Origin: an uncultured bacterium
GTDB taxonomy: Bacteria; Bacillota; Clostridia; Oscillospirales; Oscillospiraceae
NCBI GenBank assembly: GCA_947643715.1
Contig: CANRXB010000006.1
Coordinates: 1-64,000 of the forward strand
Reading direction: 5' to 3'
DNA: 64,000 nt
The translations under genes were made by a program, and so were the position numbers. The notes beneath the pieces were generated by a model. That model ran no database searches and was not told the origin of the DNA. It saw only the letters and a program-made list of their open reading frames with translations. Of the stretch, positions 31,075-34,499 are shown piece by piece; the first letter of the stretch is position 1, and every line of letters starts with the position of its first letter.

Positions 31075-32682
31075 ATGAAAAAACGCACTGCTGTCCTTCT
31101 ACTGGCCGTCCTTCTGGCGGTCACAGCCAGCCCCATCGCCATGGCCGCCCAGGAACGGGGCTCCCCGTTCGCCGATCTGCGGGAGGACCATTGGGCCTAT
31201 CCCTATGTCCTGGACCTCTACGATCAGGGCGTGGTGGCGGGCGACCCGGACGGGACCTTCCGCGGGACGGATCCGGTCACCTGGGGAGAGTCCTTCAAGC
31301 TCATCCTGTTGGCCGTGGGCGTCGAGGAGCCGGAACGGGAGCCGGACCAGCATTGGGCACACTGCTACATACAGCCCGCGCTGGACAACCGGCTGGTATA
31401 CGCGTTCAGCGAGGGCGCACTGGACGATGTGCCCACCCGGCTGAGCGTGGCCCGGATGGCCGCCCGGGCGCTGGACCTCACCGACATCTCCGGCGAGAGC
31501 CCCTACGTGGACTGTGAAGACGGCTACGTGGTGGAGCTGTTCGAGAAGGGGATCATGGAGGGCACCGTGGAGGCCGACGGGATGCGCTGGTTCTACCCCG
31601 ACCGGCCCATCGACCGGGAGGAGATCGCCACCATCGTGTGGCGGATGATGAACATCGACGTCACACAAGGGATGTTCCGGTTCAACAACTACTGGCTGGA
31701 CACGCTGGAAGGGGTGCCTCCCGTCTCGTTCTCTCCGGAACAGTTCCGCAAAGACGAGTCGGGCAGGATGACCTACTCCGGCGGCTACTACGCCCGGGGC
31801 ATCGATGTGTCCGGCCACAAGCAGGACATCGACTGGCAGGCGGTGGCCGGGGACGGCATCGATTTCGCCATCATCCGAGCGGGCAACCGCACCTACGGTT
31901 CGGGCCTGCTGTTCGAGGATTCCTACTTCCACCGGAACATGCAGGGGGCCATCGCCGCCGGGCTGGACGTAGGGGCGTATTTCTTCTCCAACGCCATCAC
32001 CGTGGAGGAGGCGCTGGAGGAGGCGGACATGTTCCTGGCCATGGTGGAGCCGTACCGGGAATACGTCACCTATCCGGTGGTATGCGACTGGGAGTATCTG
32101 GGGGGCAAGGACTCCCGGGCCTACGGCGTGGACGCCAAGGTGATCACCCAATGCGTGGCCGCGTTCTGTCAGAGAGTGGAGGAAGCGGGCTATACCCCCA
32201 TGTTCTATTTCAACGACTACTGCGGCTATGTGAAGATGGACCTGAGCGAGCTCACCCAATTCGACGGATGGTACGCGGAATATGCCGACGTCCCGGGTTT
32301 CATTTATGATTTCCAGATGTGGCAGTACTCCTCCAAGGGGAAGGTGGCGGGCATCAGCTCCGACGTGGATATGAACCTGTGCTTCGTGCCCTATCCTGAG
32401 CCGGAGCAGACGTGGCCGGACCCGGATCCCGACCAGACGCAGACATGGCCCGATCCGGATCCCAGCCAGACGCAGACATGGCCCGATCCGGATCCCAACC
32501 AGACGCAGACATGGCCCGACCCGGAACCCAGCCAGACGCAGACATGGCCGGACCCGGAGCCCAGCCAGACACAGACATGGCCGGATCCGGAACCCACCGA
32601 GTCGCAGCCATGGACCGGTCCGGACATCGTGGTGCGGGAGCATCCGGTCCCGCGGCCCTTGGACACAGCATCCCTGCGATGA
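31075..32682 (+). CDS. Secreted SLH-domain GH25 lysozyme with C-terminal 11-residue repeats
   Basis: A 535-residue exported cell-wall hydrolase. Signal peptide: [20 protein letters not shown] with cleavage after AMA. Residues 30-195 contain SLH repeats ([44 protein letters not shown]), which anchor to wall polymers. Residues ~240-440 form a glycosyl hydrolase family 25 domain ([16 protein letters not shown] and the catalytic [10 protein letters not shown]), cleaving muramic acid linkages. Then six TWPDPxPxQTQ repeats and a short tail. The repeat region is proline/acid-rich and may span the wall. Monocistronic, with its own promoter and a strong terminator. Confidence 0.9.
32410..32607 (+). 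repeat. Six tandem 33-bp coding repeats
   Basis: Six in-frame 33-bp units starting at 32410, 32443, 32476, 32509, 32542 and 32575 encode TWPDP(D/E)P(D/S/N/T)QTQ-type units; the last is degenerate (ESQ). Neighbouring units differ by few bases, consistent with recent expansion by slippage or recombination. Confidence 0.93.
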
Positions 32683-32863: not shown

Positions 32864-34261
32864 TCAATACCGGCCGAAGTCGGCGGAACGGCCCTCGGTG
32901 ACGTCGGAGCCGAACTCGTAATCCTTGCCGGGGAGGATAGCGTTGAGGGCGATGCCTGCGATGGCGGCGATGGCCAGCGAGGTGAGGGTGATCGAGGTGC
33001 CCAAGACCTCGAAGGTCAGCCCGCCGGTGAAGCCCAGGCCGCACACCAGGATGATAGCGGCGATGATGAGATTGCGGGAGTTGGTGAAGTCCACCCGGTT
33101 CTCCACCACGTTACGTACACCGATGGCGGAGATCATGCCGTACAGGATGAAGCTGACGCCGCCCACGATCGCGGCAGGCATGGAGTTGACCACAGCGGCG
33201 AACATGGGGCTGAAGGACAGGATCAGGGCATAGAGCGCGGCCAGCCGGATGACCCGGGGGTCGTACACCCGGGAGAGCACCAACACGCCGGTGTTCTCGC
33301 CGTAGGTGGTGTTGGCAGGGCCGCCGAAGAGGGCGGAGAGAGACGTGGCGACGCCGTCTCCGATGAGGGTGCGGTGGAGGCCGGGATCCTGGATGAAGTT
33401 CTCCTCCACGGTGGCGGAGATGGCGGACATGTCGCCGATGTGCTCCATCATAGCGGCGATGGCGATGGGGGCCATGACCAGGATGGAGGTGATGTCGAAC
33501 TTGGCGATGGAGCCGCCGAAGTTGGTGAGGAAGGGCTGGAGGCCCACGATCTTAGCGGAGGCCACAGAGCTGAAGTCCATCAGGGGCACGGCCACGGGCT
33601 CAGCGCCGGAGAAGTCCAGCGCGGTGGCGCCCAGGGCGTTGGCGGCCACGGCCACCAGATAGGAGCCCACCACGCCCAGCAGGATGGGGACGATCTTGAT
33701 CATGCCCTTGCCCCAGATGTTGGCGGCGATGATGATGGCCATGGCCACCAGGGCCAGCCACCAGCAGGTCTTGGCGTTGTTCACCGCCGAAGGGGCCAGG
33801 TTCAGGCCGATGAGGATGATGATGGGTCCGGTGACCACCGGGGGCAGGAAGCGCATGACCTTCTTCACGCCCACCGCCTTGATGACGCCGGCCAGGACCA
33901 CATACAGGAGCCCCGCCGCTACGATGCCGCCGCAGGCGTACTGGAGCTTCTCTGCGGCGTCCATCCCGGCATACTTCCCGGCGTCCAGCTTGGACATGGC
34001 CTCGAAGCCGCCCAGGAAAGCGAAGGAGGAACCCAGGAAGGCGGGCACCTTCAGCCGGGTGCAGACGTGGAAGAACAGTGTGCCGAGGCCGGCGAAGAAC
34101 AGTGTGGTCTGGATGCTCAGGGGAAGGCCGTACACGTTGTTGACCAGGATGGGCACCAGCACGGTGGCGCCGAACATGGCGAACATGTGCTGCAGGCCCA
34201 GGACGAGCATCTTTGGCACGCCCAGGGCGCGTGCGTCGCGGATAGGTCCTTGATCGTTCAT
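32864..34261 (-). CDS. uraA: Uracil permease (NCS2 family)
   Basis: A 465-residue nucleobase transporter with about twelve to fourteen membrane helices. Features: LGLQHMFAMFGATVLVP at the N-terminus, GSSFAFLGGFEAM, LPPVVTGPIIILIGLNLAP, the substrate-site region MEHIGDMSAISATV, and the NCS2 signature GGPANTTYGENTGVLVLSRV with NTTYGEN. These match UraA/PyrP rather than xanthine permeases. Start 34261 follows AAGGAGA; the longer frame runs back through the leader. Expression is probably set by the attenuator and leader peptide upstream (34290-34388). Confidence 0.93.
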   Translation of the reverse strand: MNDQGPIRDARALGVPKMLVLGLQHMFAMFGATVLVPILVNNVYGLPLSIQTTLFFAGLGTLFFHVCTRLKVPAFLGSSFAFLGGFEAMSKLDAGKYAGMDAAEKLQYACGGIVAAGLLYVVLAGVIKAVGVKKVMRFLPPVVTGPIIILIGLNLAPSAVNNAKTCWWLALVAMAIIIAANIWGKGMIKIVPILLGVVGSYLVAVAANALGATALDFSGAEPVAVPLMDFSSVASAKIVGLQPFLTNFGGSIAKFDITSILVMAPIAIAAMMEHIGDMSAISATVEENFIQDPGLHRTLIGDGVATSLSALFGGPANTTYGENTGVLVLSRVYDPRVIRLAALYALILSFSPMFAAVVNSMPAAIVGGVSFILYGMISAIGVRNVVENRVDFTNSRNLIIAAIILVCGLGFTGGLTFEVLGTSITLTSLAIAAIAGIALNAILPGKDYEFGSDVTEGRSADFGRY

Positions 34262-34289: not shown

Positions 34290-34322
34290 AAAAAAAGAGG
34301 CAACCGCCCAACGGCGACTGCC
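34290..34322 (-). terminator. uraA: Attenuator terminator in the uraA leader
   Basis: Minus-strand stem GGCAGTCGCC (34313-34322) and GGCGGTTGCC (34299-34308), ten pairs including two G-U, loop GTTG, followed by TCTTTTTTT. It lies between the leader-peptide stop codon and the uraA ribosome site, where readthrough would be needed for expression. Confidence 0.88.
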
Positions 34323-34325
34323 CGG

Positions 34326-34388
34326 TCAGGAAAAATAGGAACGGTATGCCCGCAGAGAAAGCTTCCCGGCAAACATCGACTCGCGCAT
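34326..34388 (-). CDS. uraA leader peptide, 20 codons
   Basis: ATG at 34388 follows AAGGAGGGG by 5-6 bases, the strongest kind of ribosome site. The peptide is MRESMFAGKLSLRAYRSYFS; its TGA ends 3 bases before the attenuator stem begins. The last codons are U-rich in mRNA (UUCCUAUUUUUCCUGA). A ribosome completing this peptide would cover the 5' arm of the terminator. The peptide itself has no recognised function; its position argues for a role in attenuation. Confidence 0.7.
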   Translation of the reverse strand: MRESMFAGKLSLRAYRSYFS

Positions 34389-34416
34389 ATCGTCCCCTCC
34401 TTTTCGCGTTCGGTCT

Positions 34417-34445
34417 ATGATACCAGAAGCTGGGGGAGAATGCAA
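34417..34445 (-). promoter_or_regulatory. uraA: uraA promoter
   Basis: Minus strand TTGCAT (34440-34445), a 17-base spacer, TATCAT (34417-34422). Transcription would begin near 34410, giving about 22 bases before the leader-peptide start and about 150 before uraA. Confidence 0.72.
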
Positions 34446-34460
34446 CATGGCAGATCGCAC

Positions 34461-34487
34461 AAAAACCGCCCGGGACGACCGGGCGGT
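34461..34487 (-). terminator. Intrinsic terminator of the amino-acid ABC operon
   Basis: Minus-strand ACCGCCCGG/CCGGGCGGT stem (34465-34473, 34479-34487) followed by TTTTTGTG, 13 bases after the ATPase stop codon. Confidence 0.9.
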
Positions 34488-34499
34488 CTTGGCACGTGC

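Follow-up and report, generated by a model that had tools for sequence, protein, structure and literature searches.

A pyrBI-like leader upstream of a uracil permease gene in Oscillospiraceae, with a proposed gate on ribosome loading

Results

A short open reading frame abuts a terminator upstream of uraA

The stretch of DNA analysed here, hereafter the window, comprises 64,000 nucleotides of a contig from an uncultured member of the Oscillospiraceae. Its gene uraA encodes a product whose top sequence matches in the PDB carry the name uracil permease, while its score against the uracil permease model PRK10720 is below the cut-off (269.5 of 477 bits). The product is probably a uracil permease, with the substrate assigned by homology. 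The gene upstream encodes an ABC transporter (best model GlnQ, below its cut-off) and has a terminator of its own, so that uraA seems to form a separate transcription unit. On the other side of uraA, at 31075-32682 on the plus strand, the window encodes an SLH and glycosyl hydrolase 25 protein with a tandem repeat near its C-terminus. The features of the uraA region are as follows.

34461-34488, minus strand: strong terminator GACCGCCCGG/CCGGGCGGTT after the ABC transporter gene, just 5' of the uraA promoter
34445-34440, minus strand: -35 element TTGCAT, located by eye in the sequence
34422-34417, minus strand: -10 element TATCAT, located by eye, with a 17-nt spacer to the -35 element
34400-34394, minus strand: Shine-Dalgarno (SD) sequence GGAGGGG of the leader ORF, seen in the sequence and kept in genus alignments
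34388-34326, minus strand: leader ORF of 20 codons, MRESMFAGKLSLRAYRSYFS*, from the sequence and genus comparison
34385-34405, minus strand: 5' arm of a predicted SD/start-codon hairpin, from the L001 fold, z tests and covariation
34330-34349, minus strand: 3' arm of the same hairpin, the pyrimidine-rich ORF end, from the fold and covariation; proposed UTP-sensitive stretch
34323-34298, minus strand: intrinsic terminator GGGCAGTCGCC/GGCGGTTGCCT, 11 pairs in a terminator scan, with covariation
34296-34290, minus strand: T7 tail of the terminator, seen in the sequence
32864-34261, minus strand: uraA, NCS2 permease of 465 amino acids (PF00860; TIGR00801 over cut-off), with its own SD sequence before the start at 34261

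A first-pass annotation of this DNA had described a promoter, an SD sequence, a 20-codon ORF with its stop, a terminator with a T7 run and then uraA. All of these are present on the minus strand, and our scan gives the stem 11 pairs. The leader stop lies 2 nt from the first stem base (3 nt for a stem of 10 bp). The promoter was placed by eye and is absent from the list produced by a sigma-70 promoter scan; its -10 element is conserved as TATNAT in genus alignments. Transcription would start about 20-25 nt upstream of the 20-codon ORF. A few nucleotides past the -10 element, CCGA/CGAA occurs at uraA (34417-34405) and also at genus promoters of pyrC (L247, L250) and carA (L229), where it might permit nucleotide-dependent start-site choice; it is absent from pyrC (L255) in the genome that contains the window.

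Folded singly, the leader in the window is unexceptional (z -1.5, with 13 of 200 shuffles equally good). The case for the leader therefore rests on comparison with relatives.

The layout is conserved in the genus

A search of 60 related genomes yielded uraA loci L001-L030, of which 28 are from the same genus, and a script flagged those with a terminator plus a nearby SD-led ORF. A short ORF reached the terminator at 23 of 29 close genus loci. This count comprises 22 of 28 flagged by the script and L014, recognised by eye; L182 (G023), which lacks a leader, is the 29th locus. No leader was found at the other six (L017-L021 and L182), with an upstream sequence of only 117 nt at L017. At L018-L021 and L182, uraA comes after the end of an apparent gene for another membrane protein.

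The genus leader peptides span 19-28 codons and differ in sequence. The stop falls 0-3 nt before the stem or inside its first bases; at L007, L010, L013 and L014 the ORF extends into or through the stem, and at L072 and L082 it spans the terminator, as does Escherichia coli pyrL. At L015 the loss of 1 nt shifts the frame, yet the new stop again abuts the stem. Since the position of the stop is kept while the peptides vary, selection seems to act on translation up to the terminator and not on the peptide. Across 49 leaders, the distance from start codon to stem is 44-95 nt.

We then measured this arrangement against its chance background. One rule was applied to 264 scripted genes, taken from related loci as well as from the window. 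It found a terminator-like site in range for 54 genes and a terminator with an abutting ORF for 13. Of these 13, 12 were uraA, leaving one non-uraA match among the 264 genes. A shuffle test locus by locus was weak at many loci (p 0.1 to 1.0), because a base of the stem often supplies part of the stop codon; in that set 30 of 107 were flagged as abutting, and L119, which has a TTG start and a weak terminator, was removed as a false positive. L009, whose leader resembles that of L007, stands outside the set of 33 leaders used below.

The terminator stem itself is maintained by compensating changes. Among 22 genus sequences, 98.8% of cells were paired, against at most 64.5% in slid controls, and the covariation score exceeded 500 of 500 shuffles and all slides. 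Four pairs had changed on both sides, which 14 of 500 shuffles matched. Two further measures gave no contrast: additional pair types were matched by 98 of 500 shuffles, and 12 cells had changed on both sides, compared with 13 in one slide. As the leaders share ancestry, the p values throughout are too small. The first-pass annotation had pointed to related uraA leaders as the place to look for a conserved ORF at a covarying stem, and the 23 of 29 loci and the stem covariation bear this expectation out.

The leader extends beyond the genus

To follow the leader further, we used a covariance model, R1, derived from 21 leaders of the genus. It gave one strong site in 23 of 37 genus genomes, each adjoining uraA (21 of them by construction). 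Two matches away from uraA in the genus search (L300 and L301, E about 2e-4) were judged to be chance. Within the family, R1 matched 22 of 200 genomes, with a site beside uraA in 16 genomes from 10 genera. The seven best matches outside the genus (L302-L308) all lie 5' of uraA and have an SD sequence and an ORF whose stop falls at the stem or inside it; their negative SD-pairing z values (7 of 7) are not independent evidence, as R1 includes the SD helix. Named carriers of the uraA leader are Pseudoflavonifractor capillosus An386a, Pseudoflavonifractor sp. 60, and Lawsonibacter and Oscillibacter metagenome-assembled genomes. Lachnospiraceae uraA loci mostly lack it.

Family matches elsewhere than uraA numbered seven, in six genomes, with a second one in G237. 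In G237, which also has a leader on uraA (L321), a 27-codon ORF runs into a terminator before a cytosine permease-like gene (L378:696-837, L384; NF008241, cytosine permease, below cut-off and PF02133 over cut-off). Its SD pairing has a z of -3.17 and its tail is 54% T. This single case favours a pyrimidine signal; among nine cytosine-permease-like loci it is the one with a leader, and none was found at the other eight. The permease-like gene of G237 has an apparent frame change near residue 190 relative to its relatives. In G184 (L377; R1 E 7e-7), a 53-codon ORF runs through a terminator before a gene for a branched-chain-type ABC binding protein. The other five non-uraA matches in the family look like chance.

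PyrR, its RNA element and an antiterminator are not detected in the genus

In the window, Rfam gave no match at gathering scores, and four sub-threshold matches nearby were judged to be chance. RF00515 (E 0.001, stricter filters) was found in 7 of 60 genomes and PyrR over cut-off in 10 of 60; both were found in 0 of the 37 genus genomes, whose completeness is 96% for G000 and 64-100% for the others. The first-pass annotation, which had recognised no PyrR loop consensus here, thus agrees with the wider search, and a PyrR element or other riboswitch was rejected as a candidate on these grounds. Outside the genus, PyrR was over cut-off in 10 of 23 relatives from the order and in 35 of 200 family genomes.

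We then compared 61 family uraA loci with and without PyrR. These are 61 of 67, after exclusion of L345 (too short), L375 (49% identity), and L327, L331, L332 and L334 (start not located). A leader was present at 27 of 49 loci without PyrR and at 0 of 12 with PyrR (Fisher p 6e-4, with no correction for kinship), under a loose rule by which some of the 27 leaders may be false. At the remaining 22 of the 49 PyrR-less loci no leader was seen. Several PyrR-bearing relatives have pyrR directly before uraA, and most PyrR-bearing loci have no terminator in range because pyrR lies just upstream.

An alternative antiterminator, which the first-pass annotation had named as a finding that would speak against its model, was sought in the same way. 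Upstream pairing with the 5' arm of the terminator reached p<0.05 in 0 of 49 leaders (mean z +0.35), and an antiterminator was rejected as a candidate. No conserved control codons were seen by eye in the leader peptides. A trp-type amino-acid attenuator was likewise rejected, for the lack of such codons and of any antiterminator sign.

On other pyrimidine genes, leaders were found at 0 of 30 pyrB loci (330 nt upstream) and 0 of 30 pyrD loci; a loose scripted rule flagged 1 of 30 pyrC loci (L262) and 1 of 28 carA loci (L240). Two genomes, G014 and G021 (completeness 84% and 94%), carry the uraA leader and have none of pyrB, pyrD, carA and pyrC over cut-off, and may depend on uracil uptake. In G000, pyrB is the only one of these four genes missing over cut-off.

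The ORF end is U-rich and can pair with its own ribosome-binding site

The last 24 nt before the stem contain 48.7% T, compared with 26.4% in the ORF body, and the tail was higher in 33 of 33 leaders. This bears out the U-rich ORF end that the first-pass annotation had noticed. At third codon positions, T occupies 153 of 284 sites in the tail; the ORF body has 78 of 291 and uraA 1529 of 12605. When Phe, Tyr, His and Cys codons were taken separately, tail and body did not differ (78 of 111 and 37 of 55), while uraA was far lower (346 of 1383). The T bias relative to uraA is thus set at the nucleotide level, and part of its concentration in the tail reflects the amino acids encoded there.

RNAalifold on 14 leaders and folds of single sequences predict a long hairpin that joins the SD and start codon to the end of their own ORF. 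In the 40 nt that precede the stem, 41 of 42 leaders offer pairing partners for at least 12 bases of the SD/start region. Against dinucleotide shuffles, this pairing had a mean z of -1.94 among the 42 leaders, compared with +0.11 among 188 ordinary genes, and p<0.05 was reached by 20 of 42 leaders versus 5 of 188 genes (Mann-Whitney p 2e-14, kinship not corrected). Composition-preserving shuffles gave a mean z of -2.19, with p<0.05 in 21 of 33. Nine of ten clade means were negative; that of L122 was positive. Signal was weak or missing in L122 (z +1.66), L120 (+1.12), L082 (+0.82), L073 (-0.05) and L013 (-0.40). Cognate arms outpaired about 70% of swapped arms, and the non-cognate arm was better in about 30%.

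Covariation provides a further line of evidence. The 13-pair core of the hairpin was 88.7% paired across 21 genus leaders, against at most 58.6% when slid, and its covariation score was above all 500 shuffles and all slides. Six pairs had changed on both sides, a number matched by 35 of 500 shuffles and exceeded by one slide, which has seven. The hairpin loop is not conserved.

Through this pairing, the U-rich stretch doubles as the anti-SD strand. Its U-richness is partly forced by pairing with the A-rich SD region, yet is not due to pairing alone: among unpaired positions of the last 40 nt, 243 of 575 (42%) are T. Pairing with the SD/start region may nevertheless give the ORF end a second, possibly the main, reason to be pyrimidine-rich.

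A proposed mechanism and its alternatives

From the conserved anatomy we infer that the leader ORF is translated, that ribosomes mask the terminator in this organism, that UTP is the signal and that the SD hairpin acts as a gate. A ribosome at the leader stop would cover the adjoining 5' arm of the terminator, and polymerase would read on into uraA; if no ribosome followed closely behind polymerase, the terminator would form. With a usual distance of 0-3 nt from stop to stem, a ribosome that has reached the stop codon should mask the hairpin. According to one E. coli study (PMC4824070), a terminator 5 nt past a stop is suppressed, with a termination efficiency below 10%, and suppression is not seen beyond 27 nt. 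Over the 44-95 nt from start codon to stem, polymerase may outrun the ribosome unless it pauses. With the SD and start codon able to pair with the pyrimidine-rich ORF end, a ribosome could load only before that strand leaves polymerase. Low UTP would slow synthesis of the anti-SD strand, leaving the SD open, so that the leader would be translated, polymerase would read through and uracil would be taken up; at high UTP the SD would close and transcription would terminate. The first-pass annotation had proposed leader translation that masks the terminator without PyrR, which comparison supports; it had missed the pairing of the U-rich end with the SD and start codon.

We consider it probable, from comparative sequence evidence, that this is ribosome-masked attenuation answering to pyrimidine supply, whether or not the gate is part of it. 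The fuller version, in which the anti-SD strand is itself the UTP sensor and low UTP gives ribosomes more time to load, we favour only tentatively, as a possibility that falls short of an even chance. Alternatively, UTP-sensitive pausing in the U-rich tail may suffice, as in plain pyrBI-type attenuation, with the SD hairpin a by-product of a purine-rich stretch facing a pyrimidine-rich one. That account is the gate-less half of the explanation we prefer, so our confidence in the two overlaps. The tail is U-rich at unpaired positions too, the anatomy matches that of E. coli pyrL, and the hairpin signal is missing in some leaders; however, SD pairing is stronger than in composition-preserving shuffles (mean z -2.19, 21 of 33 at p<0.05) and covaries, and we regard an entirely gate-less leader as somewhat unlikely. 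A leader that responds to translation as such (an amino acid, the supply of ribosomes or the rate of initiation), so that uraA follows growth or translation capacity and not UTP, would fit all the sequence evidence for ribosome masking equally well. Against it stand the lack of conserved control codons by eye and of any antiterminator sign, a stop usually within 3 nt of the stem when amino-acid attenuators are described with more than 20 nt from stop to terminator (PMC4824070), and the controlled genes, which are pyrimidine base carriers; we judge it improbable.

Two explanations dispense with the ribosome. A protein or ligand might bind a leader hairpin and select terminator or antiterminator, as in PyrR-type control or a riboswitch. 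PyrR is given as the usual regulator in Gram-positives (PMC13328217), and 10 of 23 order relatives outside the genus have it. However, PyrR over cut-off and RF00515 were found in 0 of 37 genus genomes, the window has no Rfam match at gathering scores, there is no antiterminator sign and the hairpin loop is not conserved, which makes such control very improbable here. That an ordinary terminator between transcription units merely happens to follow a chance ORF is the least credible reading of all. Its appeal lies in the unexceptional single-sequence fold, the commonness of short ORFs and the weakness of the per-locus shuffle test; conservation of the layout, the 12 of 13 in the background count, the covariation of both terminator and SD hairpin, and the spread through the family speak against it and refute its strong form. 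Ribosome-masked attenuation thus remains our preferred reading. Given that the U-rich end pairs with its own SD and start codon, we describe the uraA leader as a candidate pyrBI-type attenuator with a proposed extra gate on ribosome loading.

Discussion

The design known from E. coli pyrBI is unexpected in this branch of the bacteria. According to a 2026 review, Gram-positives use PyrR and Gram-negatives premature termination (PMC13328217), and a 2010 paper states that, erm apart, no leader-peptide attenuators outside Proteobacteria and Actinobacteria were known before its own his leader from bacilli (PMC2965389); bmrB is a later case of a leader in Bacillus (PMC4191407). Among the open-access papers searched, we recognised none on a pyrBI-type leader of a Bacillota uracil permease. 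Many gut Oscillospiraceae appear to have no PyrR and to place a pyrBI-like leader before the uracil carrier gene instead, and at the loci examined PyrR and this leader never occur together.

PyrR with RF00515 resembles the uraA leader in placing pyrimidine genes of Gram-positives under transcription attenuation, whereas the genus with the uraA leader shows no PyrR, RF00515 or antiterminator sign. In Bacillus subtilis bmrB and in amino-acid leaders, translation of the leader likewise decides termination; the uraA leaders gave no antiterminator sign, whereas the bmrB model includes an antiterminator and ribosomes stalled by antibiotic (PMC4191407).

A different precedent exists for the hairpin. 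E. coli pyrC uses an SD-sequestering hairpin that depends on start-site choice by nucleotide supply. As would be the case at uraA, nucleotide supply decides whether a hairpin closes the SD. The uraA hairpin differs in that it would shut the SD of the leader, with timing proposed to come from elongation and not from start-site choice. If this is true, the SD gate would be a new timing step in ribosome-controlled attenuation.

The closest likeness is to E. coli pyrBI and its leader pyrL, with a short ORF that leads up to a terminator, a U-rich stretch before the stem and a pyrimidine gene 3' of it. Judged from its sequence, the uraA leader carries the pyrBI features: a leader ORF with an SD reaching to the terminator, an intrinsic terminator, no antiterminator sign, a U-rich stretch and a pyrimidine gene. 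Unlike pyrBI, it occurs in Oscillospiraceae (Bacillota) and would control a uracil permease; the ORFs seen have 17-42 codons against 44 in pyrL, the stop usually abuts the stem, and a covarying hairpin includes the SD and start codon. Pairing of this kind is conceivable in pyrL as well. In E. coli K-12 (L309:3400-3534), the SD GGGAGGA can pair with the U/C-rich UUCUUCCCG later in the ORF, with a z of -2.2 (p 0.02) for the whole leader and -1.0 (p 0.17) for the last 36 nt in this one sequence; pyrL varies too little within E. coli for covariation. By analogy, the same SD gate may operate in E. coli pyrBI. Gating at the SD would then belong to pyrBI-type attenuation in general, having arisen or persisted in both Bacillota and Pseudomonadota, and would suggest a re-reading of E. 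coli pyrBI itself.
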